The notes beneath the pieces are model-generated. The model was not told the DNA's origin and did not search any database. It saw only the letters and a program-made list of their open reading frames with translations. Position numbers and translations under genes: made by a program. From NCBI RefSeq assembly GCF_900101015.1, contig NZ_FNFZ01000001.1, positions 1 to 64,000 of the forward strand: a stretch of DNA of 64,000 nt, given 5' to 3'. Positions within the stretch are counted from its first letter, which is position 1. The number at the start of each line of letters is the position of its first letter. Source of the DNA: Sarcina sp. DSM 11001 (GTDB taxonomy: Bacteria > Bacillota > Clostridia > Lachnospirales > Lachnospiraceae). Shown here piece after piece: positions 396-13,358 of this stretch.

Positions 396-1184
396 TCGAT
401 GAATATGATGTGCTTGTAAGAGAAGAAGCCGCCGCTCCTCTGTTTGAAGAATATTTATCTTTATTAAACGGTCTGAAGCCATATCTGACAGGATCCGGCA
501 GAATTTTGCCGGGACAAAAGATGCCGTAATATCAATGCTGGCAGGGGAAGGTGTAGAAGTGAATGTGACACGTTTTCTGAATACGATGTCTTCATTTCAT
601 ACAAAGGATGATCTTTTCACCTTCCTGATCCATCTCGGATATCTCGCCTACGACATGAAGGACAGCACCTGCCGGATTCCGAACCGGGAAGTTCGCGGGG
701 AGTGGTCTAATGCAATTGAGACGGAAGCCGAATACGCTGTAACATCAGATATTATCCAGTCCTCCAGACAGCTGTTGTCCGATACGCTGAACATGGATGA
801 AGAAGCTGTAGTGTAGCAAGGGCGCTGGACATCTCTCACATACATGTAACAAGCAACAGGAGCTATAATAACGAGGACGCACTGCAGAGCGCTGTTTATC
901 TTGCTTACATCTATGCCCTGAACCGCTATACTGTGATCAGGGAAATGACTTCCGGAAAAGGCTTTGCCGATGTCGTTCTTATCCCTTTTTATACTGGAGA
1001 TCCGGCACTGATCATTGAACTGAAACGAAATGACAGTGCCGGGAGCGCACTTCGGCAGATAAGGGACAGGTAGTATTACGATTCTCTCAAGCATTATCAG
1101 GGCAATCTCCTGTTTGTCGGGATTTCCTACGATGAAAAGATGAAGACACACACTTGCCGGATTGAAAAATTTATAAAACAGTAA
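338..1184 (+). pseudogene. Decayed AAA-ATPase-like / PD-(D/E)XK nuclease-domain gene
   Basis: Three pieces of one protein survive in different frames. Positions 338-about 480 encode LGESILNVYAATG and the Walker B stretch FIILIDEYDVLV. Positions 502-813 encode the middle region (FAGTKDAVISMLAGEG, then LLIHLGY-type sequence, then IPNREV). From about 811 to 1184 the C-terminal PD-(D/E)XK domain is readable (GKGFADVVLIP, then LIIELKR). Relative to the intact copy at 47634-49283, the N-terminal P-loop region and about 200 central residues are gone. There is a frameshift near 812 and an in-frame TAG at 1072-1074, where a Gln codon would be one base away. The family is the AAA-ATPase-like plus PD-(D/E)XK group that is expanded in gut Clostridia and Bacteroidetes; its function is not established. 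The break with the intron remnant at about 335 suggests the intron inserted into or recombined with this gene. Confidence 0.8.
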
Positions 1185-1287
1185 AAATACAGGTCAGGAC
1201 GGAATTGTCACCCGATTATTTGGGATTCGTCAAAGAACAACCCTCAAATTACAAATGGAAAAAGCAGGTGTGAAAGCATCTGCTTTT

Positions 1288-1296
1288 TGCTATAAT
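1288..1296 (+). promoter_or_regulatory. Extended -10 promoter for the AAA/PD-(D/E)XK gene
   Basis: TGC followed by TATAAT (1291-1296) forms an extended -10 element. The -35 region at 17 bp spacing (1268-1273, GTGTGA) is poor, as is usual for extended -10 promoters. It lies about 60 bp upstream of the start codon at 1355. Confidence 0.55.
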
Positions 1297-1354
1297 CAGA
1301 AAAGATTAAAGCGGATGTGATAACACCGGGAAGCTGGGAGCAGGGGGATATTGC

Positions 1355-2947
1355 TTGAAAACATTTAATACGACAGCGGTATGCATACCGGAAAAGCATT
1401 ATATGGTCGATCTCTCCGAAAGAGTGACTGAGATCAAAAAACTTGTCGATTCCGGCAAGTATTTTACCATTAACCGCGCCAGACAGTACGGGAAGACAAC
1501 AACGATTGATGCCCTCTGTCGAGTACTCCGGGGGCAGTATATTGTTATCAGTCTTGACTTCCAGGATATTGAGTACGGCAGTTTTATAAATGGCGGGGAG
1601 TTCTCTAAAGCTTTTGCCAGGATTTTGCTGGACGCCTCTGAGTTTGATGATCTGGTGCTGCCGGAGAATATCAAGGAGAAACTTCAGGCTTTAAATGAGA
1701 AAAAAACCACGGAAGTCAAAATGGATGATCTGTTCCGGGTTTTTCGAAGTTGGTTTAAAGAGGAAGAAAAATCGATCGTACTTATCATTGACGAGGTAGA
1801 TACCGCCGCCAATAATCAGGTTTTTCTTGATTTTCTCGCGCAGCTTCGTTCTCTGTATCTTAAGAGGGAAAAGAATCCAAGAACAAAGACTTTTCAGTCT
1901 GTTATTCTGGCCGGAGTGACAGATGTGAAACATCTGAAAGGAAAGATCAGAGAGGAAGACCGGCATAAGGTCAACAGCCCTTGGAACATCGCGGCAGACT
2001 TTGATATTGATATGAGCCTCTCGGAGTCCGGCATCAAAGGTATGCTGGACGAATACGAAGCAGACCATCATTCCGGGATGAACATGGCAGCCATCGCGCA
2101 GCTTATTCGGGAATACACGAATGGATATCCTTTCCTGGTAAGCAGGATCTGCCAGCTGATTGATGAGCAGGTCAGCCGCAAACTCGGGATGGATGCCGCA
2201 TGGTCCGGAATCGGCTTTGATGAAGCGATCAAACTTCTCCTGGCGGAAAACAATACACTGTTCCAATCATTGACAAAGAATCTGAACAACTGCCCTGAAT
2301 TAAAAACCGCTATTCGCAGTATCCTGATGGAGGGAACAAAACTTGCATACAATGCCCAGCAGGATGAAATACTCCGGATGCAAATGTACGGACTGATCAG
2401 GAACGACCATAACACGGTTCGTGTGGCCAACAGAATCTTTGAGACGATGCTGTACAACCTCTTCCTGTCAGAAGAAGAACTGAAAAACAATGTTTTTTCC
2501 AGGGAAGGTGATTTGGCAAAGAATCTGTTTGTGCAGGATGGAAAACTCAATATGCGGCTGATCATGGAGCATTTCATTGCCACATTTACAGAGATTTTTG
2601 GACCACTGGAGGAAAGATTCAAGGAGAAAGACGGAAGAGAGCATTTCCTGCTCTATCTGAAGCCAATCATTAATGGCACAGGTAATTATTATATTGAAGC
2701 CCAAACCAGAGATCAGACCAGAACGGATGTTATTGTCGATTATCTGGGGCAGCAGTATATTATAGAACTGAAGATATGGCGCGGGCCGCGCTATAATGCC
2801 GAAGGAGAGAAACAGATCAGTGAGTATCTTGATTATTTCGGCCTTTCTACAGGTTATATGCTAAGCTTCAATTTCAACAAAAACAAGCAGCCGGGCGTTC
2901 ACCCGGTACACATTGGAGAAAAGCTGCTGTATGAGGGGGTCGTTTGA
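1355..2947 (+). CDS. AAA-like ATPase with C-terminal PD-(D/E)XK nuclease-like domain
   Basis: This 530-residue protein begins MKTFNTTAVCIP and has a P-loop-like NRARQYGKTTT (Lys47) and a Walker B LIIDEVD (Asp146, Glu147). The middle is helical. The C-terminus carries a PD-(D/E)XK arrangement: RTDVIVD (Asp458), then IIELKIW (Glu471, Lys473). The start is TTG at 1355, preceded by a GGGAG/AGGGGG ribosome binding site; the paralogue at 36118 starts at the same residue, which supports the choice. The two proteins share long near-identical blocks, such as around NGTGNYYIEAQTRD. The family (AAA_35-like ATPase fused to a Rpn/PD-(D/E)XK-like domain) is common in multiple copies in Clostridia. Defence, mobile-element or cell-envelope roles have all been considered; none is shown here. 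Confidence 0.85.
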   Translation: MKTFNTTAVCIPEKHYMVDLSERVTEIKKLVDSGKYFTINRARQYGKTTTIDALCRVLRGQYIVISLDFQDIEYGSFINGGEFSKAFARILLDASEFDDLVLPENIKEKLQALNEKKTTEVKMDDLFRVFRSWFKEEEKSIVLIIDEVDTAANNQVFLDFLAQLRSLYLKREKNPRTKTFQSVILAGVTDVKHLKGKIREEDRHKVNSPWNIAADFDIDMSLSESGIKGMLDEYEADHHSGMNMAAIAQLIREYTNGYPFLVSRICQLIDEQVSRKLGMDAAWSGIGFDEAIKLLLAENNTLFQSLTKNLNNCPELKTAIRSILMEGTKLAYNAQQDEILRMQMYGLIRNDHNTVRVANRIFETMLYNLFLSEEELKNNVFSREGDLAKNLFVQDGKLNMRLIMEHFIATFTEIFGPLEERFKEKDGREHFLLYLKPIINGTGNYYIEAQTRDQTRTDVIVDYLGQQYIIELKIWRGPRYNAEGEKQISEYLDYFGLSTGYMLSFNFNKNKQPGVHPVHIGEKLLYEGVV

Positions 2948-3083
2948 ACTAAGCCAGCCTTGTATGTCAGAATAATTGTCAGGAGAGACGGTGCGGGCGT
3001 ATTTCCTGATGATTGTAGTGGGAGCAGAATATTACTCTTTATTTGTTAGAAAAATGAAAAGCCTTGCCGGAAGGTAGTTGACA

Positions 3084-4916
3084 ATGACAGATGAGAACAA
3101 AAATATGGCTTTCCGTGAAGAAAAAAGTACTGTAAGACCTTTGGTATCAGTCTGTATTTCAGTCTATAATGGAGAAGACCACTTGAGAAAATGCCTTGAT
3201 TCGGTCCTTTCTCAGGATATTAGTTCTATGGAAATCGTTCTTGTGAATGATGGATCTACAGACGGTACATCAGAGATCATGCATGAATACCAGAACAGAT
3301 TTCCGGAAATCAGGATCATTGAGCAGGAAAACAGAGGGCTTGCACAGGGCAGATGGACGGGAGTAAAGAATTCCACTGGAAGTTACATCACCTTTCTGGA
3401 TGCGGATGATTATCTTCTTGAAGGTGCTTATAAAACAATACTTCAGTTTATGGAGAACAATGAAGCTGATATTTACGAGTTTCAGACGATCCGGGAAGGT
3501 TATTATTCCAAATCGCCCTATTCCGGGATTATGGAGGCCGGACAAGTCCTGGCAGATTATTTTAACGGTGTAAAAATACCAGTGAACTACTGGCTCCGGT
3601 GGTTTAAACGTGAGCTGTTTTCAGAATCCGTTTTCCCTGTTGGCATTTCTCTCCATGAGGATGTATATGGTTTTCCCTGTCTTCTCAACAGAGCGGATAC
3701 AATAGCATATATAGGGAAGCCCCTCCATGTCCATATAAAGACTCCTGTCTCTATAATGAATACCCTTTATGAGAAGAAAAACACCAGAGAATATTTTGAA
3801 AAACAGAAGATATTACTGCTGTCGATTCCACACATTGTTTCAAACATTGGGCAGAATGTGATCGACACAGAATATAAAGAATCATTCTCTCATTATATCA
3901 CCCGAACATATCTGAAGATCGTTTTCATGGATGTTAAAGGTATTTCTTACAATGAGAAGCTGGATGCAATAATTGAAACGCTCGGGCTGAAGATGTCAAG
4001 GAGAGAACTGGAAAGGTACATCTCTCAGAATGTAGGGCAGCAATCCAGGCTTAACTGTGTCATCCACCTCTTGGGGCTGCATGAGGGTTACCGGCTGTAT
4101 GATTTGAGAAAGAGGCTTTCTCACTCTCCACTGTGGGGATTGCGTAACAGGACAAGACGTTTATCCCGGAGAATGCGATATAAAGTGGATATGGTATCTC
4201 ATCCTGAGCAGACAAAATGTTTCTGTCCATGTTGTGGCATGAAATTCCGTGAGTTTAAGGAGGGCCCCTTTTTAAACCGGCCGGATAGATATGATCCCAA
4301 AAGATATATAAACATTGATCAATCTGTCCTGTGCCCGTTTTGCGGTTCTATGCCAAGACACCGGATTCTTGCGGCCTGGTGTGAAAAACATACTGAACTC
4401 CTCCGATCATCGACGATTCTATACTTTGCTCCGGAACCAAATATGATGCTGTGGATGAAAAGAAACAGAGTAAAGTGCACCACAGCAGATCTGTTTCAAA
4501 AAGCGGATCTTACCCTGGATATTCAGAAGACAGGGCTGCCGGACGAATCCTATGATCTGATTATCGCGAACCATGTCCTGGAGCACGTGGATGATTTCAG
4601 AAAAGCCTTGAAAGAGATACACCGCATCCTGAGACCAGACGGCCTTTTCATCTGTTCCTTCCCGATGGACCCGAAAGTAGAAACTCTGGACGAAGATGAA
4701 GGCATTAAGACCGATGAGATGCGCCTTTCCCGTTACGGACAAAATGACCATAAGAGGCTTTTCGGTCTGAAGGCAGATCACCTGCTGGCTGATGCCGGTT
4801 TCTCTGTTACGGTGATTAAAGGCGAGGACTACCCTGATGAAATCCTGCCTGTTATTGGACCTGCAGACTATGATATGAATCGACTCTTCTGCTGCAGGAA
4901 ATTCAGGATAGAATAG
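3084..4916 (+). CDS. Family 2 glycosyltransferase fused to a SAM-dependent methyltransferase
   Basis: The N-terminal half is a GT-A glycosyltransferase of family 2: LVSVCISVYNGEDHL, then IVLVNDGSTDGT, then the DXD-type FLDADDY. The C-terminal half has two cysteine clusters (CFCPCCG at residues 379-385 and CPFCG at 417-421), suggesting a zinc-binding module. A class I methyltransferase domain follows, with YDLIIANHVLEHVDD and ILRPDG typical of the Methyltransf_11 group. An AUG at 3084 is chosen over the in-frame TTG at 3078 because the GGAAGG ribosome binding site (3069-3074) is then spaced 9 nt. The protein probably transfers and methylates a sugar on a surface glycan. It is separated from the main polysaccharide locus by the RADAR operon, so it may be an orphaned cluster gene. 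Confidence 0.85.
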   Translation: MTDENKNMAFREEKSTVRPLVSVCISVYNGEDHLRKCLDSVLSQDISSMEIVLVNDGSTDGTSEIMHEYQNRFPEIRIIEQENRGLAQGRWTGVKNSTGSYITFLDADDYLLEGAYKTILQFMENNEADIYEFQTIREGYYSKSPYSGIMEAGQVLADYFNGVKIPVNYWLRWFKRELFSESVFPVGISLHEDVYGFPCLLNRADTIAYIGKPLHVHIKTPVSIMNTLYEKKNTREYFEKQKILLLSIPHIVSNIGQNVIDTEYKESFSHYITRTYLKIVFMDVKGISYNEKLDAIIETLGLKMSRRELERYISQNVGQQSRLNCVIHLLGLHEGYRLYDLRKRLSHSPLWGLRNRTRRLSRRMRYKVDMVSHPEQTKCFCPCCGMKFREFKEGPFLNRPDRYDPKRYINIDQSVLCPFCGSMPRHRILAAWCEKHTELLRSSTILYFAPEPNMMLWMKRNRVKCTTADLFQKADLTLDIQKTGLPDESYDLIIANHVLEHVDDFRKALKEIHRILRPDGLFICSFPMDPKVETLDEDEGIKTDEMRLSRYGQNDHKRLFGLKADHLLADAGFSVTVIKGEDYPDEILPVIGPADYDMNRLFCCRKFRIE

Positions 4917-5025
4917 AAGTGAAAAGAATTGGAAATCTGGCTGGACAGCAAATAAAGACCAGGAAACTATCGCCAACATAGTCCTGATTTTGTGCTTTGC
5001 AGGGTGATGGGAGTATTTAGAATAG

Positions 5026-5292
5026 CACTGGCAATGGTTATTTTTAGTATTTGCCGCCAACTGCCTTCTATGTCCCCGGGTTCTATTCAACCGGTATTTT
5101 AAGAACGGAAAACTGAAGGAATACTGGCTGGATCACATTTCCTATTTGATGACTATGTTACTGACCGCAGGGACAAGCTGGCTGATCTGTGATTTAATAC
5201 TGCCTTTGAGCATGTCCGAAACAAGAGGATGGACCGGCTTCGGGACGTTGGAGCCTGACACCGTTACACCAATGTGTCTGGAATATGAATAA
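5026..5292 (+). pseudogene. Possible remnant of a polysaccharide flippase-like membrane protein (C-terminal piece)
   Basis: An open frame follows a TAG at 5023-5025 and ends at TAA 5290-5292. It reads LFNRYFKNGKLKEYWLDH and then a hydrophobic helix with LTAGTSWLICDL. This basic-patch-plus-helix pattern resembles the C-terminal end of oligosaccharide flippases of the Wzx/MATE-like type. There is no start codon or ribosome binding site and no upstream membrane domain, so it would be a decayed fragment. Recognition rests on pattern only. Confidence 0.4.
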
Positions 5293-5772
5293 AACATGAA
5301 CGCGGTTAAAATTTATATAAATCCCGTCATATAATAAACTATGATTACTTTGGATGAGAACTTTGCATAAAAGTTCCACTAAAAGTTACATTTTTCCCCG
5401 TGTTACTTTAAAAACCCAGTAAATATGCGGGTTACTCGTATTGAAACGACGTATGAGCTCGTTGACTGAAAGAGAACTTTAATAAATAGACAGCATATGG
5501 TACCAGTGAAGATGTGCTTTTGCCATATTTCTGATGGTATTATGTCTGTCAAAAGAGGAAATCGATCAGGGGACTCAGAAAAGAGGGTTTCAGAGTTTTT
5601 CAAAGTAATTGCGGAGGCTGTACCCAAGGGGCAAATATGTGGACCAGGACTATTAAAACGTTAAGTTGATCATACGTTGGAGTGTTGAGGGCTCTATTTG
5701 ATGGCTAAAAAGTTTGGGAATCGAGGGTCATGTGAATCGATTTTTATATCGATGAGCTTCAGCGGATAAAGT
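5293..5772 (+). other. AT-rich gap with no recognisable gene
   Basis: About 480 bases between the possible flippase remnant and the RADAR promoter. Only short frames are open and none has a credible ribosome binding site. I see no tRNA, repeat array or strong hairpin. It probably holds degraded sequence left by insertion of the defence operon. Confidence 0.5.
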
Positions 5773-5801
5773 TTGACGATTTGCATTTAAAAGTGTACAA
5801 T
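5773..5801 (+). promoter_or_regulatory. Near-consensus sigma-A promoter of the RADAR-type operon
   Basis: TTGACG (5773-5778), a 17-bp spacer and TACAAT (5796-5801). Transcription would begin near 5808, giving a leader of about 90 nt before the first gene. It is the best promoter upstream of the three-gene operon and suggests constitutive expression. Confidence 0.7.
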
Positions 5802-5896
5802 TATTTAAATTTTTTTTTATTTCTGATGTTTTAAGATGTATGTCTGAGTGTGATCGTTGATTTGGCGATAAAACGAAGAGTTAAATACGTGAGTAT

Positions 5897-7900
5897 ATGT
5901 TATCGCTCCACGATAACATAATTGAAGGACAGGTTAGTGCGATGCAGTTGAACGATTGGGCTATAAAGTTTTCGGGAGCAGAGTTTGATGGAAACACAGC
6001 CGAAAAACTAAAAACTTTTTTTAACAACATATGGAACAGTCCAGCAGAGTATAAAGTCCTCATGGCAAGAAGGATGTTCAATCTACATTTTGCTATGAAA
6101 AAAAGTATCCAGGCGGAGAATAATGAACAGTATTTGCAGAAAGGGATTATGTCTAATACTGCTTTTTTGTTATCCGGAAAGAATATCGTATATTATTACC
6201 TGCTAAGAGGGGAATTTCCGAGGATCCTCATATGCGATGATATACTTCTTCATGGAAGGAGTATCCTGAGGCTGATTAATTCTCTTGAAGGGATAGTTCT
6301 TTATTATTTATCCAAAACAGAAAGTCAGTTTGAGAAAGAGACTGTTCTTCATGAACTGAGAAAGTCGATTTTGATTTATGTGTTCGCCCAGAATGCGGAA
6401 GGAGTTCTGATTTCTTCAGACTACCAGCTGCTTGCGGCACAGCGTCTGTCGCTAAAGGAGCTGCGAAGCCTCTCTAAGGAGTTTTCTCACTATATTCAGA
6501 GATGCGGAGTAGCCAATACAAGTTATGTCCTTTCCATTACGTTGCCCATTGGCAGTTTATCCTGGGAGAAAGAAATGCCAACGGGTGCAGAAGGATCGTT
6601 TGCATATATGGGCTTTAGGCAGAAGTTGTTTGCGCGCTATGAGAGAGAGAGCATACTAGATACGATACGAATTCGATACTCCAGGGAAAGGTATCCGCAG
6701 AAAGAGATTTGTACGGGGCTAACTTTGTTTGGGGACATTCCTTTTGACAGTTTTGATTCATTATGTCGGGATTTGTCCGATTATTTGGGAACTTTTGCTG
6801 TCTATAAACGTATGACGGAGTTGCTGGCTCTGGAAACTGAAGAAAAGGAGCTGATACGTTCTCGTGGACAGCTTGTGACATTTTTATATTCTACCATTGC
6901 TCTCGCTGATTTTCTTAGGGAGAAGATGCACTTAGATGATAATGACCTGGTAAGGGTACTCCTGTCCAGTGACTATGAAAAGGTGGCAGCCAATTTCGCG
7001 GGAGGCGAGCGCTTCGTGTTTGAAATTGTTGCGTTGATTAATACCATAAGTCAGGATCATCAGTTTGTCAGGTGTTTAAAACAGATGCTTTCACGAGTCT
7101 CCATTGGGAGGCTGATTTTTAATCAGGAGAACAGTACAGTTTCTTTTCAGCCAATTGTTGAGGATGGTCACACAGATGACATGGAAGAGGATTCACTTTC
7201 CTTGCCGTATCGATATGTTCAGGATATATTCTACGATGTCGGAATGGATGGGGAGTATGATGCATATCAATGCAAGACAGGCAGAAAGATATTTGATAGC
7301 AGATCAACAGGGTATGATAACATTACTTTGGGAAAATATCTGCAATTGATCGAGAAATATGGGGTAAAGGATATTCCCGGCATAGGTTATATGTACGGAT
7401 TGATGGATGAGGGACAGCTCACCTTGAATATTGAAGGTAATATGGAGGACTGTACGATTCGTACGATCTTGAAAGCGGGTGAACTGGCCACATATGTCCT
7501 GCCAATGCGTTATTCTGTCTTTATTCCGGCTTTTTCCATGCTTGAGCGAACATGTGGATTAAAAGAACCTTTTCTACAGGGGGAGATTAGTGGTTTTATC
7601 GATTATTTACAGGATCATTGCTTTGCGATAGATAATATACCAAAGAACCAAGACTTGAAATGCTTAAAGAACCTAAAGGAGGATAAACAGCGCCTTCTCC
7701 AGATTTATTCAATTGGTCAGAAGTTCTCCGACTGGGATTTATCCTTGAAACGACCGGAGCAGACAGAGGAAAACAGAGCGGTTTTTTATGAGGAATTATT
7801 AAAGTATGTAGAGGAGTCTTTACGTAGAGCTTATTATATATCTTGCATAAGGGATTATCTTGCATTCAAAAAGACGGGGAGACAGAACGATGAGCAATAA
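5897..7900 (+). CDS. RADAR-operon first gene: phosphoribosyltransferase-like protein of unknown function
   Basis: A 667-residue protein that I do not recognise as a described RADAR subunit. At residues 110-122 it has ILICDDILLHGRS: a hydrophobic strand, two adjacent aspartates and a glycine loop. This is the shape of the PRPP-binding motif of type I phosphoribosyltransferases (hhhhDDhhxTG), with His in place of Thr before the Gly. A second hydrophobic strand (ILIYVFAQN) follows, as expected for a Rossmann-like PRTase core at roughly residues 85-200. The remaining 460 residues are mostly helical, without signal peptide or membrane segment. The start at 5897 has a weak ribosome binding site; an in-frame AUG at 5942 is an alternative. 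The stop codon overlaps the rdrA start by 11 nt, implying translational coupling and a shared role. It may be a sensor or nucleotide-handling accessory; the motif alone does not prove catalysis. Confidence 0.75.
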   Translation: MLSLHDNIIEGQVSAMQLNDWAIKFSGAEFDGNTAEKLKTFFNNIWNSPAEYKVLMARRMFNLHFAMKKSIQAENNEQYLQKGIMSNTAFLLSGKNIVYYYLLRGEFPRILICDDILLHGRSILRLINSLEGIVLYYLSKTESQFEKETVLHELRKSILIYVFAQNAEGVLISSDYQLLAAQRLSLKELRSLSKEFSHYIQRCGVANTSYVLSITLPIGSLSWEKEMPTGAEGSFAYMGFRQKLFARYERESILDTIRIRYSRERYPQKEICTGLTLFGDIPFDSFDSLCRDLSDYLGTFAVYKRMTELLALETEEKELIRSRGQLVTFLYSTIALADFLREKMHLDDNDLVRVLLSSDYEKVAANFAGGERFVFEIVALINTISQDHQFVRCLKQMLSRVSIGRLIFNQENSTVSFQPIVEDGHTDDMEEDSLSLPYRYVQDIFYDVGMDGEYDAYQCKTGRKIFDSRSTGYDNITLGKYLQLIEKYGVKDIPGIGYMYGLMDEGQLTLNIEGNMEDCTIRTILKAGELATYVLPMRYSVFIPAFSMLERTCGLKEPFLQGEISGFIDYLQDHCFAIDNIPKNQDLKCLKNLKEDKQRLLQIYSIGQKFSDWDLSLKRPEQTEENRAVFYEELLKYVEESLRRAYYISCIRDYLAFKKTGRQNDEQ

Positions 7901-10550
7901 TATCGTGCAGGTAAGTTTTATTCATGGACAGGAAATCGAAATAGTCATTGAAGACGTCGGCAGGTCTTTTGCAAAGCATGGCATAATGGAGCAGTGTTAT
8001 CGGAAAGCACTTGATGCTTTGGGTGTATATATCAAACAGACTGGGCCTGTGCGAAGGAAACTGAACAAACCGGAGACAAGTGAATCACAAAAGAATAATA
8101 TTCTCTATCGTTCACCGCAGAATATTTTTGCGTTTTCAGGAAGACGTGGTGCTGGAAAGACCAGCACCATGCTTTCTTTTACGGAATTCCTTTCTGATGC
8201 TGTTTCTGTGTCAAAAGAAGAATCTCTTTCTTCGGCCAGGTTTTTTGTGTTGAATCCAATAGATCCTACTGCCCTGGAGGAAAAGCAGAATATATTGAAT
8301 ACGGTTTTGGCTCGCATTCTATTTGCTACGGAAGAAGAGTGGAACAGTTGTATGGATTTTCACAGGATTCCAAAAGATCGGGAACAGGCGAAGAATGCTC
8401 TTCTTCAGAAAGCCAGTGCCTGTATGAGTGGAATTCGGGCTGTAAAGGGTGACGGAATTGTCAGTTCATTGGCGGAAATACAGAAGATCAGCGACAGCGC
8501 TGTACTCGAGCTGGATTTCTATGAACTTGTAGACATGGCTCTGGAATTTTGCTCCTCAGGCAAAGGCTCCGATTATAAGAAAAATAATCAATTTCTCGTT
8601 ATACCGATTGATGATACTGATTGCCAGATTCAGAAAGCATATGATGTGCTGGAAGACATCCGTAGATATTTAACGATTCCCAATGTCATCATTTTGATGG
8701 CGACAGACCTCGAGATGCTGCGGATAGTGTTTACTCAACATTTTGCAGAAAAGTTTCGATTTGGGATGGAGCGGACATCTATTTCCAGTAATGTGGTGTA
8801 TGAGACTGCAGGAAAGCATTTTTCCAAGCTGGTTCCTGTGAGGCACAGAATCTACCTTCCGGAATTTGAAGACTTCATCAAGCAATCGTTGGTTATTTTG
8901 CTTGGTTACTACGAGGATGAATCAGAAGATCTAGACCTGATTAGCGGGACAACAAAAGGTGAAAGAGAAAAACTACTGCCGGACAAATCATATACATGGG
9001 AGCTTCGAAAAAGTACCTGTCTGGATGTTAACTTTCAGGCAAAGATTCTTACGTATATTTTCAAAAAAACAGGAATATACTATGCAGAACATTCTGCATA
9101 TATCAACCATATGATTCCGACCACTTTGCGGGGAATGGGTTATCTTCTAAATTTCTTGCATTCAATGGAAGAGATAAAAGATCTGGATGTTTCTGTCTTT
9201 AATAATAAGTTGAAGTGTGCGGATGAACTGGAAAAGCAGCTTCGTTCCTATGAGTACAATCTGAACCAGTTTGAAAAGTACTTTATTTCAGAATGGATTC
9301 CGACAAAACTGCCCATTGAAATGGTTGAGCTACTCAAAGGGATTGCTGAGCAAGTGCCGGAAAATATTGTGAACTATACACTGACAGAACTGCTTGCCAA
9401 GTATTACGACAGTCCTTCTGCTTTATATGAATCGTCTGCTCTTATGGTTAGGAATTCACGACAAAGAAGTGGTTCTTATATAGAATTGATGAAGTTGCTG
9501 GCCCAGAACAATGGAAGAGGGAAAAACGGTAGTTCTGAGATTTTAATAGATCCCCATACAAAGTCTGAAGATTATTTCTGTACTTTTGCAGTGCATACGA
9601 TTTTCTCGATTCAGAATACCAGGCATCTGCTTCATGTAAAGGAAAGAATGATTCTAAAATGGATGGAATCTAGGAAGATAGAAAATCCTAAATTCCCCTT
9701 GATCAATTATCTTATTGGTACAGAGAATAGGTCATTTCCTGATGTGTTTACAGAAGACGGGGAAATAGAGGAAGGATGTGTGTTGAGGATTCTCGATGCG
9801 GTGACCGGATCTAAGTATTCTTCGAAAGAATCGGATGATAATGTTTATATTAAATTTCTGACCTCGACGCTTAATGTGATAGGAAATATCCTATCCGGAA
9901 AGGTTACCGAAACTAAACTGGATAATCACACGTTGTTTAGGGTGCAGGAGATTGCCGGGATACTGTTCTGCGATTGGGATGCACAGGAAATCTTCTGTAA
10001 AGTACTTCGTGATTTTATCCAGAAAAAGATGTGGAGAAGATATAAATTGTTTAAAGGAGAGTATCTCTTTGAAGAAATCATGACTGCCATAATTTCCAGA
10101 AATTGTGGGATGCTTGAGAAGAAAACGATTGATCTTAAGAAGGTCTATGCTGCATTTGACTTTGAAAAGGAAAAGAATAGTAGAAAAGTAATAGAGAAAA
10201 ATGTGGCTGTTGCTAAAAGAAATGAAGAGCTCTTAGCTCGATTAACCAGGGATAAAAACGATGTCGAGAATCTTATAGAGACTTTGGACTATTCCTTCAT
10301 TAGTCCAATAGTGGAAGACAAACTGAAGATCTTGTTGGAGAATATAAATTCGGATTTAAATATTATTAATGATTCTCTGGGCAATGCGACAGGGATAGTT
10401 AAAAAATGGACATTACCGCTCTCGATGGAAAAGGCTCGATTGCAGTCATATATTGATAAAGGAGACGCACAGCACGATGTTCAGGAATTAAAAGAGATTT
10501 TGGGCCAAATTCGAGACATACTAATGCATATTACAATAGAGTTAAGATAA
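7890..10550 (+). CDS. rdrA: RdrA-like ATPase of a RADAR anti-phage system
   Basis: This 886-residue P-loop ATPase has Walker A FSGRRGAGKTS (residues 82-92, Lys90) and Walker B FLVIPIDDTD (235-244, Asp241 and Asp242). The Walker B is followed by a sensor-like strand, NVIILMATD. This arrangement resembles KAP/STAND-type ATPases. Known biology: RADAR consists of the ATPase RdrA, which forms ring assemblies, and the adenosine-deaminase-like RdrB. Together they deaminate adenine nucleotides or RNA during phage infection. The size, the position directly before an RdrB-like gene and the motifs support the call. The start is AUG 7890, inside the end of the preceding gene, with a GGGGAGA ribosome binding site. 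The C-terminal third is helical with a likely coiled coil (around residues 770-890). Confidence 0.85.
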   Translation: MSNNIVQVSFIHGQEIEIVIEDVGRSFAKHGIMEQCYRKALDALGVYIKQTGPVRRKLNKPETSESQKNNILYRSPQNIFAFSGRRGAGKTSTMLSFTEFLSDAVSVSKEESLSSARFFVLNPIDPTALEEKQNILNTVLARILFATEEEWNSCMDFHRIPKDREQAKNALLQKASACMSGIRAVKGDGIVSSLAEIQKISDSAVLELDFYELVDMALEFCSSGKGSDYKKNNQFLVIPIDDTDCQIQKAYDVLEDIRRYLTIPNVIILMATDLEMLRIVFTQHFAEKFRFGMERTSISSNVVYETAGKHFSKLVPVRHRIYLPEFEDFIKQSLVILLGYYEDESEDLDLISGTTKGEREKLLPDKSYTWELRKSTCLDVNFQAKILTYIFKKTGIYYAEHSAYINHMIPTTLRGMGYLLNFLHSMEEIKDLDVSVFNNKLKCADELEKQLRSYEYNLNQFEKYFISEWIPTKLPIEMVELLKGIAEQVPENIVNYTLTELLAKYYDSPSALYESSALMVRNSRQRSGSYIELMKLLAQNNGRGKNGSSEILIDPHTKSEDYFCTFAVHTIFSIQNTRHLLHVKERMILKWMESRKIENPKFPLINYLIGTENRSFPDVFTEDGEIEEGCVLRILDAVTGSKYSSKESDDNVYIKFLTSTLNVIGNILSGKVTETKLDNHTLFRVQEIAGILFCDWDAQEIFCKVLRDFIQKKMWRRYKLFKGEYLFEEIMTAIISRNCGMLEKKTIDLKKVYAAFDFEKEKNSRKVIEKNVAVAKRNEELLARLTRDKNDVENLIETLDYSFISPIVEDKLKILLENINSDLNIINDSLGNATGIVKKWTLPLSMEKARLQSYIDKGDAQHDVQELKEILGQIRDILMHITIELR

Positions 10551-10586
10551 TTATGGATTTGGCTTAATCAATGAGGAACAAGAGGC

Positions 10587-13358
10587 ATGCTTACAGATGT
10601 GCGGGTGTTGGACTTATTATACAGGAAGATTGAGCCCGGTAGGATTCTTCGAGAGCTGCTTGATGGATCAATAGATGGTATAGAAAATTCAAAAGCTGGA
10701 GTGTTTAGAGACAATACTCTTTTCCTTGAGTACGCAGAGTCTACTTTATATGGGTTTTCAGAGGATGAACAGAGCTTGTTATATGACTATGTACAACAGG
10801 TGGCAGATGACTGGTGCGGGGGGCTGGAAAGGGTACAGTGTGAGTTCCTTGTTCCGCTTATGGCATTTTCCGGAAGGCATCTTAAGATAGAAGGAGGAGT
10901 ACCTGTGTGCCGAACAGGGATGGCACTAGACTGGAGAGATGCGTACCTGCGGATTGGACAGGATTTGCTTGTCTGTGCGTTTCTTGTCAACCGGGATTAC
11001 AGGAACCTTATTAAAAGGAAAGATTTTACCTGGCCTGTTATTTTGAGAACTGATAACTCTGAGCTTTATACTATATTGGGAGAAGGAATCGCAGAGAATC
11101 ATAACCACTTGAACGGCGGGACACTGTCTTTTCAGATTACCTGGTGCCGGTTGATGAACTATCCGGAACAGATTAGGAAGGAACTGATAAGCTTCAGAGA
11201 CGGGAACCTTACCTATGGGATACATCGTGGCAGCAGAGAGGGAATAATGGATCTCTATGAGATTCTGGAACTTGCTGCTTTGCTCAGGAGTATATTGTTC
11301 AGGTGCTTACACAGGGATGCATTTATTAATGATGACAGTCGGAGGAGATTGACAGATCATAGAAGCACAGGTTTTCTACATGGGAACAGTGCTTTTCATG
11401 AAAGTCTCGCTTTTAGCGGAGAGCAGGCTTTTGGGGAAGAGTACCGCAGCTTTTGGGGGGAAAGGGGAAATAATATCCTTGAGCGTATTGTGGGTTCACT
11501 TCGCATCGATTATGGCGTGAAATTGAATGTGATGGGGCATTCCTCATACTGTCTGGACTATGCTCTTGAACCGGAGTTTGCGCAGCAACATGCGGATTCG
11601 GGTGTTCGCCTCTTGATCGGGGAGCGGGCATTTCTGTATAGATGTATGCAGGAATGTCTGTCTGAAAACGGGTTCACGGCATTTGAGAAAAAGCTGTTTT
11701 ATCTATATATTGTTTTGCAGTGTAAGTTTCGAAGTGAAATGATTCAGAATAATATGCAGGTCGGATTTAAAAACTTCCAACATTATCAGAATCGAAAGGG
11801 AGATACTTGGTACTATACACCTTATTTCAGTGAAGCTGTTCGTCTTGCTCTGAACAACAGGCTCAGTGCAGAGCAGATAATTTCTTTAGAGGGGAGGATG
11901 GTGCCGGATCGCAGTCCCAGGGAAAATATAAGGATCTTGAAGTTGTATGATACAGCAAAGCGGTTTAACGACTGCAGAGAATCATTGGCAATGAATCGTT
12001 CTTTATATGAATTTGATTCTGACACAGAGTGGAGACAATTTTCGAATGCGCCATGGTTTTATGTATTTCATTTTATCAAAAGACGTGATGACCGACCTTT
12101 AAGGGGCCCCTCGTTTTGGATGATACAATGTCGACATGAGAATCTTAGGCAGACTGTTATTGAACAGGCCCGCGCGCTTGCAGATGCATTAAACACTTCT
12201 CCATATTTTCGGAGCAGGGTACGTGGAATTGATGCCGCTTCGAATGAGTTTTTGTGCAGACCGGAAGTATTTGCTGTAGCCTATCGATTTCTGGATGCCA
12301 TGCAAACGGACTGGAATGCCCTTAATGATGGTATGCAGGATTCTGTTCCGATCCGTCTTGGAAAGACTTTTCATGCAGGAGAGGATTTTCTGGATATAGT
12401 GGAAGGACTTCGTGCGATTGACGAGGCAGTGGAATTCCTGCATCTGGATTCCGGGTGCAGGATCGGACATGCACTGGCCTTGGGAGTAGATGTTGAGGTC
12501 CATTATCACAAGAAGCATCTTGTGGTGGTTACCACGCAGCAGGAACGGCTGGATGATTTGGTATGGCTGCTGTTTCGCTCAAAGGAACTTGGAGTGACTA
12601 TACCGTATTCATTGGAAGCTTCCCTGACTGGAGAAGCGAATCATCTGTTTCGAGATATTTATGGAACTGCTGTTAATAGTAATGGATGGGAATGCAACCT
12701 GCAGGATTACAGGTACAGTATGAAGTTGCGGGGAGATGATCCTTCTGTATACCAAACGAGAAGATATGTTCCTCCCCGCATGAGCGGAGATGAAATTGTT
12801 CGTTACTATGTAGATACTACTGACGAGATATTGGAACATTATAGGGTAAACGAGCGAATTGCAGGTATGTGTTATTACTATCAATATGGCATCGAGGAAG
12901 CAATCTGTGGATCCAGGACATACACATTCAAAGTTACAGAGGAATATCGCACATTGATGTATGCCGTGCAGAAGGCAATGATGGAAGAGGTTGGAAGGAA
13001 GCGTATTATAATTGAATGCAATCCTTCTTCCAATGTTTTGATCGGAACATTTGGAGATTACAGACTACATCCTGTTTTCAGATTTAATAACCGGCATCTG
13101 GATCGGTACAAACGGTCTGAATCGAACCCCTCTAATGACTGCCAGCAACCTCAGATGCATGTAAGCATTAATACCGATGATCTCGGTGTATTTGATACGA
13201 CACTTGAGTTTGAATATGCTCTGATTTATGAAGCTTTGACAGATCCGGATAACAATACGGTGTATCCTTTTTCTGGGGATAGAGATGTCATGGAATATAT
13301 TGAGAATCTCAGAAAGATGGGGATTCGGGCGACTTTTCCGCCGGCTGCTCAAAGATGA
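10587..13358 (+). CDS. rdrB: RdrB-like divergent adenosine deaminase of a RADAR anti-phage system
   Basis: A 923-residue protein carrying all the metal-site motifs of the adenosine deaminase superfamily. They are ENHNHLNGG (His172, His174), FHAGED (His596 and the catalytic-type Glu), CRIGHALALG (His628) and SINTDDLG (Asp864, Asp865). ECNPSSNVLIG and LHPVFRF also match the ADA pattern before the final motif. The protein is far longer than metabolic adenosine deaminases (about 340 residues) because of large insertions, which is the RdrB hallmark. In characterised systems RdrB forms a large shell and converts adenine nucleotides or RNA adenosine to inosine. It starts at AUG 10587 with a GAGG ribosome binding site, 36 nt after rdrA. 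No catalytic residue appears lost, so activity is expected. Confidence 0.9.
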   Translation: MLTDVRVLDLLYRKIEPGRILRELLDGSIDGIENSKAGVFRDNTLFLEYAESTLYGFSEDEQSLLYDYVQQVADDWCGGLERVQCEFLVPLMAFSGRHLKIEGGVPVCRTGMALDWRDAYLRIGQDLLVCAFLVNRDYRNLIKRKDFTWPVILRTDNSELYTILGEGIAENHNHLNGGTLSFQITWCRLMNYPEQIRKELISFRDGNLTYGIHRGSREGIMDLYEILELAALLRSILFRCLHRDAFINDDSRRRLTDHRSTGFLHGNSAFHESLAFSGEQAFGEEYRSFWGERGNNILERIVGSLRIDYGVKLNVMGHSSYCLDYALEPEFAQQHADSGVRLLIGERAFLYRCMQECLSENGFTAFEKKLFYLYIVLQCKFRSEMIQNNMQVGFKNFQHYQNRKGDTWYYTPYFSEAVRLALNNRLSAEQIISLEGRMVPDRSPRENIRILKLYDTAKRFNDCRESLAMNRSLYEFDSDTEWRQFSNAPWFYVFHFIKRRDDRPLRGPSFWMIQCRHENLRQTVIEQARALADALNTSPYFRSRVRGIDAASNEFLCRPEVFAVAYRFLDAMQTDWNALNDGMQDSVPIRLGKTFHAGEDFLDIVEGLRAIDEAVEFLHLDSGCRIGHALALGVDVEVHYHKKHLVVVTTQQERLDDLVWLLFRSKELGVTIPYSLEASLTGEANHLFRDIYGTAVNSNGWECNLQDYRYSMKLRGDDPSVYQTRRYVPPRMSGDEIVRYYVDTTDEILEHYRVNERIAGMCYYYQYGIEEAICGSRTYTFKVTEEYRTLMYAVQKAMMEEVGRKRIIIECNPSSNVLIGTFGDYRLHPVFRFNNRHLDRYKRSESNPSNDCQQPQMHVSINTDDLGVFDTTLEFEYALIYEALTDPDNNTVYPFSGDRDVMEYIENLRKMGIRATFPPAAQR

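Follow-up and report, generated by a model that had tools for sequence, protein, structure and literature searches.

The first 64,000 nucleotides (nt) of contig NZ_FNFZ01000001.1 of Sarcina sp. DSM 11001 (assembly GCF_900101015.1), referred to here as the window, contain an operon in which a gene designated C precedes divergent rdrA and rdrB genes of the RADAR system. C (5897-7900, + strand) has an ATG start and encodes a protein of 667 residues with a predicted phosphoribosyltransferase (PRTase)-like domain and a winged helix; it is the first gene of the operon and probably a third RADAR gene. An earlier note on this DNA had held that C overlaps rdrA by 11 nt, and the overlap is indeed present, as the ATG of rdrA lies at 7890 and the two genes share positions 7890-7900 (the longest rdrA frame starts with TTG at 7860). 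The divergent rdrA (7890-10550, + strand) is identified by matches to NCBIfam (E 1.3e-29; 103 bits, cut-off 600) and PADLOC (E 4.1e-17) and by a Walker A sequence, GRRGAGKT, at residue 84. After a gap of 36 nt it is followed by rdrB (10587-13358, + strand), which encodes a divergent adenosine deaminase matched by NCBIfam (E 3.3e-51; 175 bits, cut-off 800) and PADLOC (E 1.8e-36), with the deaminase motifs HNH at 172, HAGE at 596 and TDD at 863, whose residues are invariant among eight aligned RdrB proteins. An rdrA with an ATPase domain thus adjoins an rdrB with a deaminase domain, with NCBIfam scores below the curated cut-offs, and from its sequence the operon is classed as divergent RADAR, for which the formation of inosine triphosphate (ITP) and phage defence are predictions only.

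Used alone, the C protein of the window (P0001) finds no relative in the plasmids, phages, viral_contigs and genome_contigs collections, nor among 60 kin genomes besides its own; in 17 RADAR-bearing genomes it finds itself and one weak match with internal stops (E 0.01). Relatives of RdrB were therefore gathered instead. Of 392 genomes of the same order, 17, counting the window's own, have an RdrB match; 14 of the remaining 16 were examined at length (G382 and G090, with short RdrB matches, were left out), and together with the best 80 of 252 relatives from an RdrB alignment search of the genome collection these give a set of 94 loci, in which two contigs appear twice. Because the relatives of C came through the RdrB alignment, the linkage of C to rdrA in this set is partly by construction. 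A C-like protein occurs in 24 of the 94 loci (23 by blastp, 24 by profile) and in every one of them lies directly upstream of rdrA on the same strand, the adjacency that the earlier note had proposed looking for in other genomes; a scan of all reading-frame fragments in the 94 loci added none to these 24. Three more of the RdrB genomes proved, when scanned, to have C on another contig: in L058 and L086 that contig also bears a piece of rdrA, and in L125 the C frame is broken and its contig ends without rdrA. In locus L057 the three genes follow one another as C, rdrA and rdrB. Two RdrB genes are found on one contig of L092, a divergent one at 871-3606 (score 221) and then, at 5233-12664, a C-rdrA-rdrB set.

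A quick tree of 92 RdrB proteins was used to place C in the history of the system: 27 of these come with C, 55 without, and 10 have too little upstream DNA. (The tree leaves out L031 and L036, which lie on the same contigs as L084 and L123, and L057, for which the open reading frame (ORF) filter kept a longer antisense frame; the labels of L058, L086 and L125, three of the 27 with C, were taken from other contigs of the same genomes.) A single branch of 32 rows (support of 97 in the Shimodaira-Hasegawa-like approximate likelihood ratio test) takes in all 27 C-bearing rows; its remaining members are four of unknown state and one without C, so that C is present in 27 of the 28 rows of known state. 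The single row without C, L059, may be decayed, because its RdrA match is shortened to positions 91-562 of 865. The C label requires two changes on the tree when the unknown rows are set aside and six when they are counted as lacking C; shuffled labels require 23.6 on average, and none of 500 shuffles gave a number as low as six. Tree distances from 23 systems (a set without L057 and without L054, a near copy of L063) correlate at r 0.879 for C and RdrA and r 0.883 for C and RdrB, figures that are inflated by relatedness, and at r 0.928 for RdrA and RdrB; the best of 2000 permutations reached 0.46 for C and RdrA and 0.35 for C and RdrB. C has stayed with its operon, and C-rdrA-rdrB is a conserved, co-inherited gene set. 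No other evidence ties C to RADAR as strongly as its restriction to one branch together with the correlation of distances, and there is little doubt that it is a genuine component of the system.

Insight into what C might do comes from its predicted structure. Residues 29-228 (5981-6580, + strand) form a type I PRTase-like domain according to AlphaFold, VIA-align, profile comparison and an intermediate homologue: the predicted structure of this segment has the PRTase core fold, and all 50 listed VIA-align rows are PRTase-like, as the earlier note had expected of a folded model. Within it, residues 110-122 (6224-6262, + strand) read ILICDDILLHGRS, as the same note had given them and as the translation confirms, and resemble the loop that binds phosphoribosyl pyrophosphate (PRPP); the resemblance rests on conservation in 27 copies and on a profile comparison in which the segment aligns in register with the corresponding loop in 21 PRTases. 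Taken together, these results make it highly likely, on the model, that C has a PRTase-like core. The family model Pribosyltran gives no match to P0001 at E ≤1 and a weak one (E 0.26) to one of 25 members of the C family, and it matches a distant homologue (in L177, discussed below) with E 7.6e-6 and 25.8 bits (cut-off 26.3). PRTase-CE, a conflict-system domain, is absent from the Pfam matches of the 25 members at E ≤0.5, the presence of its model in the library being unchecked. For P0001 by itself, PADLOC and NCBIfam give nothing at E ≤1, Pfam gives two weak hits that fall far short of their cut-offs, and the PDB gives a single weak hit. A SAVED domain, raised by a weak match of the A2 profile to PDB 7rwm_A (E 0.0052), was rejected, as there is no DDxxxxGR pattern in the part that matched and the evidence for a PRTase is broader.

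The 27 RADAR-linked copies of C, the window's included (two row pairs are near copies), show which residues have been kept. G120, N207, R258 and E529 are the same in every copy; Asp stands at position 114 in 25 copies, Asp or Glu at 115 in all 27, and Arg at 121 in 24. This pattern of invariant, acidic and mostly Arg positions argues that the loop motif is beyond chance. Position 58 is Arg in 24 of the 27 copies and position 613 is Trp in 26, and the conserved residues outside the PRTase core may, to judge from the alignment, complete one pocket. Compared with the classical acidic pair followed by Thr-Gly, the loop of C keeps the acidic pair and the Gly, but the Thr is His in 19 of the 27. The first loop of PRTase enzymes usually has Gly or Ser; in C it has Arg-Arg and no conserved Gly. 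Ordinary PRTase catalysis by C is therefore not assured. These two departures, and the fact that RADAR already has an effector in RdrB, make it unlikely that C is an active phosphoribosyltransferase effector, which would use up PRPP or attach phosphoribose to an acceptor (base, nucleic acid or protein) and so provide a second nucleotide-poisoning arm, even though the PRPP loop is largely kept and an effector role has been proposed for the PRTases of type III retrons and of an anti-phage system that pairs DprA with a PRTase (PMC12548924, PMC9122126).

The C-terminal half of the protein contains a feature that is absent from the earlier note, a winged-helix-like fold at residues 431-527 (7187-7477, + strand), recognized from the order of its secondary structure elements (helix, strand, two helices, two strands) and from VIA-align of residues 428-650. 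Its would-be recognition segment, residues 492-506, averages 0.8 basic and 1.3 acidic residues over its 15 positions, and this net acidity points to docking rather than DNA reading. C adjoins rdrA on one side and a frame at 3078-4916 on the other, and has about 980 nt of DNA upstream. This DNA holds a promoter-like site, TTGACG-17 nt-TACAAT (5773-5801, + strand), which is a consensus match only, at 10 of 12 positions, in a region where 32 such sites were found against 22.2 expected by shuffling (sd 5.1). A perfect 10-bp inverted repeat with a 5-nt spacer (5896-5920, no strand assigned) covers the first ATG of C; it has one match in the window against 0.05 expected, and the 64 kb hold 11 repeats of the same class. 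The true start of C may be the ATG at 5942 (Met16) and not that at 5897, because an AAGGA lies at 5925-5929, the repeat lies over the first ATG, and residues 1-28 have a predicted local distance difference test score (pLDDT) below 50 in the AlphaFold model. The repeat itself is not used as the basis for any conclusion. A leading position in the operon with ample upstream DNA, the winged helix, the inverted repeat and the precedent of PurR (PMC8789054, in the part available) speak for a PurR-like transcriptional autoregulator, whose winged helix would sit on an operator and whose PRTase domain would respond to PRPP or an alarmone; the acidic recognition segment speaks against this, as does the finding that the repeat is not present at C of the relatives examined, and such a role is quite unlikely.

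The position before rdrA is not reserved for C. A same-strand ORF of at least 150 residues lies directly upstream of rdrA in 52 of 82 rdrA loci, and 24 of these 52 ORFs are C. In another RdrB branch, of 11 rows, a family of 412-483 residues that is unrelated to C lies directly upstream of an rdrA in 10 loci (L032, at 4042-5418, L033, L101, where it precedes the second rdrA, L107, L109, L110, L112, L113, L119 and L122); Pfam TPR matches were found in all three members scanned, above the cut-off in one. Because this branch has an unrelated family in the same place, the slot before rdrA seems to hold trigger modules; because the family matches TPR, the slot may serve recognition or assembly and not nucleotide binding, and C could then serve RdrA as a structural or adaptor subunit, with a PRTase-like pocket that has fallen out of use. 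The loop residues are among the best conserved of C, which argues for a ligand and leaves the adaptor role very unlikely. In Pedobacter (L121, 6249-7484) the gene immediately before rdrA encodes a member of the PD-(D/E)XK nuclease family (PDDEXK_4, E 2.8e-19). The window itself encodes, at 1355-2947, an AAA-ATPase-like protein whose end matches PD-(D/E)XK weakly.

The structural core and the gene neighbourhood both lend good support to the proposal of the earlier note that RADAR has here a new component bearing a PRTase-like loop. The further suggestion of that note, that such a partner might sense or process purine products of the IMP/ITP type, is conjecture. The preferred reading goes further, at a probability of about 0.5: C would be a clade-specific third RADAR component that acts as a ligand-sensing regulator, either a sensor or a gate. 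It is the best reading because the phosphate-binding loop has been kept and because gene order and history tie C to RdrA. In this model the pocket of C would bind a phosphorylated ligand whose level shifts on infection, such as PRPP, (p)ppGpp or a purine nucleotide; the half with the helices and the winged helix would relay the state of the ligand to RdrA by protein contact; and RdrA would pass the signal on to the RdrB deaminase. RdrB converts ATP to ITP, and RdrA enhances RdrB and "may control sensing", according to the accessible text of PMC9994260. The working model for C would be PurR of Firmicutes, whose PRT domain, next to a winged helix, performs no catalysis and reads PRPP and (p)ppGpp, as far as PMC8789054 is available.

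Profile and protein searches made from the side of C, in overlapping sets of 61, 385, 391 and 358 genomes, returned the window's own copy as the only full-length C. They also returned a decayed C in G885, which counts in favour of the linkage: it lies collinear with a single frame in which the beginning of RdrA is joined to the end of RdrB. G293 has an N-terminal C fragment that is cut off by the end of its contig, where no rdrA is seen; a match in G355 was false, the frame reading as DnaX. Against an exclusive tie of C to rdrA, distant homologues of C occur in other operons at L177 (5374-9166) and L176 (2685-6529, frame-broken), where the order is a protein with hydrophobic segments, then the C homologue, then a protein of about 350 residues. 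No rdrA or rdrB match was found in the 14-15 kb around either homologue; both genomes bear RdrB elsewhere. These operons lie outside RADAR and weigh against the sensing role within RADAR proposed above, to the extent that it takes C to be linked exclusively to rdrA; they are perhaps another defence system using the same module. The L177 protein gave one weak match in 295 genomes (E 6.8e-4) and none in plasmids or viral_contigs. At L179 (2054-2692), a 212-residue protein with hydrophobic segments lies beside C and has a weak PADLOC match to PDC-M48A (E 3.5e-4), so a small accessory and C may occur together.

One further homologue, full-length at 611 residues, lies at 7995-9830 of L181, a linear IMG/VR contig of 35,932 bases classed as viral. 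The frame after it is not rdrA; the RdrB and RdrA searches of this record were empty and had no positive control, so they show little. Its neighbours match phage families, for example an NAD-dependent DNA ligase and a DNA methyltransferase, and no capsid or terminase was found among the 20 proteins scanned. Position 115, acidic in all RADAR-linked copies and in both bacterial homologues outside RADAR, is Tyr here, and position 58 has a Gln that one RADAR-linked copy shares. It is an attractive guess from these substitutions that the viral protein could be an anti-RADAR decoy with a spoiled pocket. The idea comes from a single metagenomic contig, on which sequencing error is possible because the methyltransferase is split over short frames. 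Extended to all of these loci, the sensing role becomes a broader and improbable scheme, in which the PRTase/winged-helix protein would be a portable infection sensor that switches on ATP deamination in response to a nucleotide signal (PRPP or an alarmone, for example). Effector sets would plug into it, RdrA-RdrB in one clade and a membrane protein with another protein elsewhere, and phages would counter it with a dominant-negative decoy of spoiled pocket.

On how RADAR senses infection, PMC9994260 says no more than the remark on RdrA quoted above. A conserved third gene with a PRPP-loop-like pocket, marking a whole RdrB branch, is a concrete candidate for the infection sensor, and the stand-alone viral protein, if real, would be a natural probe of the sensing step.

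Several known systems share parts of this design. Type III retron PRTase/winged-helix genes (PMC12548924) and DprA-PRTase (PMC9122126), in the parts of these sources available, resemble C in encoding PRTase-like proteins of anti-phage systems, the former with a winged helix; in contrast, the C operon has no reverse transcriptase and no DprA. A type III retron was rejected on the grounds that there is no reverse transcriptase beside C and no Rfam match in the window, where the sole reverse transcriptase match is an RVT_1 piece (33-395, 120 residues, E 2.2e-7) that by eye is of the group II intron kind. PADLOC gave no match for the 25 members of the C family beyond four weak unrelated ones (best E 0.018). 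With the type I PRTases HGPRT, UPRT and PyrR, C shares the predicted core fold and the register of the PRPP loop; it differs in the loop His of most copies, in its Arg-Arg first loop and in more than 400 extra residues that include the winged helix. PurR of Firmicutes (PMC8789054, seen in part) has, like C, both a PRT domain, which is regulatory, and a winged helix, but C has a net acidic winged-helix segment and the reverse of the PurR order, in which the winged helix (PF09182) precedes the PRT domain. C was for this reason rejected as a member of the PurR family; the name PF09182 is absent from the Pfam lists of the 25 members, the presence of that model in the library being unchecked.

The closest comparison is with RADAR itself. 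No report of RADAR with a phosphoribosyltransferase, or of a third RADAR gene of this kind, was found in open-licence PMC articles, which is not a claim that the gene is unreported. RADAR is described, in the available portions of PMC9994260, PMC11676413 and PMC12948488, as two genes, to which some variants add the small membrane proteins SLATT or Csx27. Set beside the accessories in the accessible part of PMC11676413, C is no small membrane protein of that type, just as the earlier note had maintained. The window operon has the same adjacent rdrA and rdrB, with the same ATPase and deaminase motifs, as the two-gene system in the available text of PMC9994260, and differs from it in having a third large gene before rdrA.
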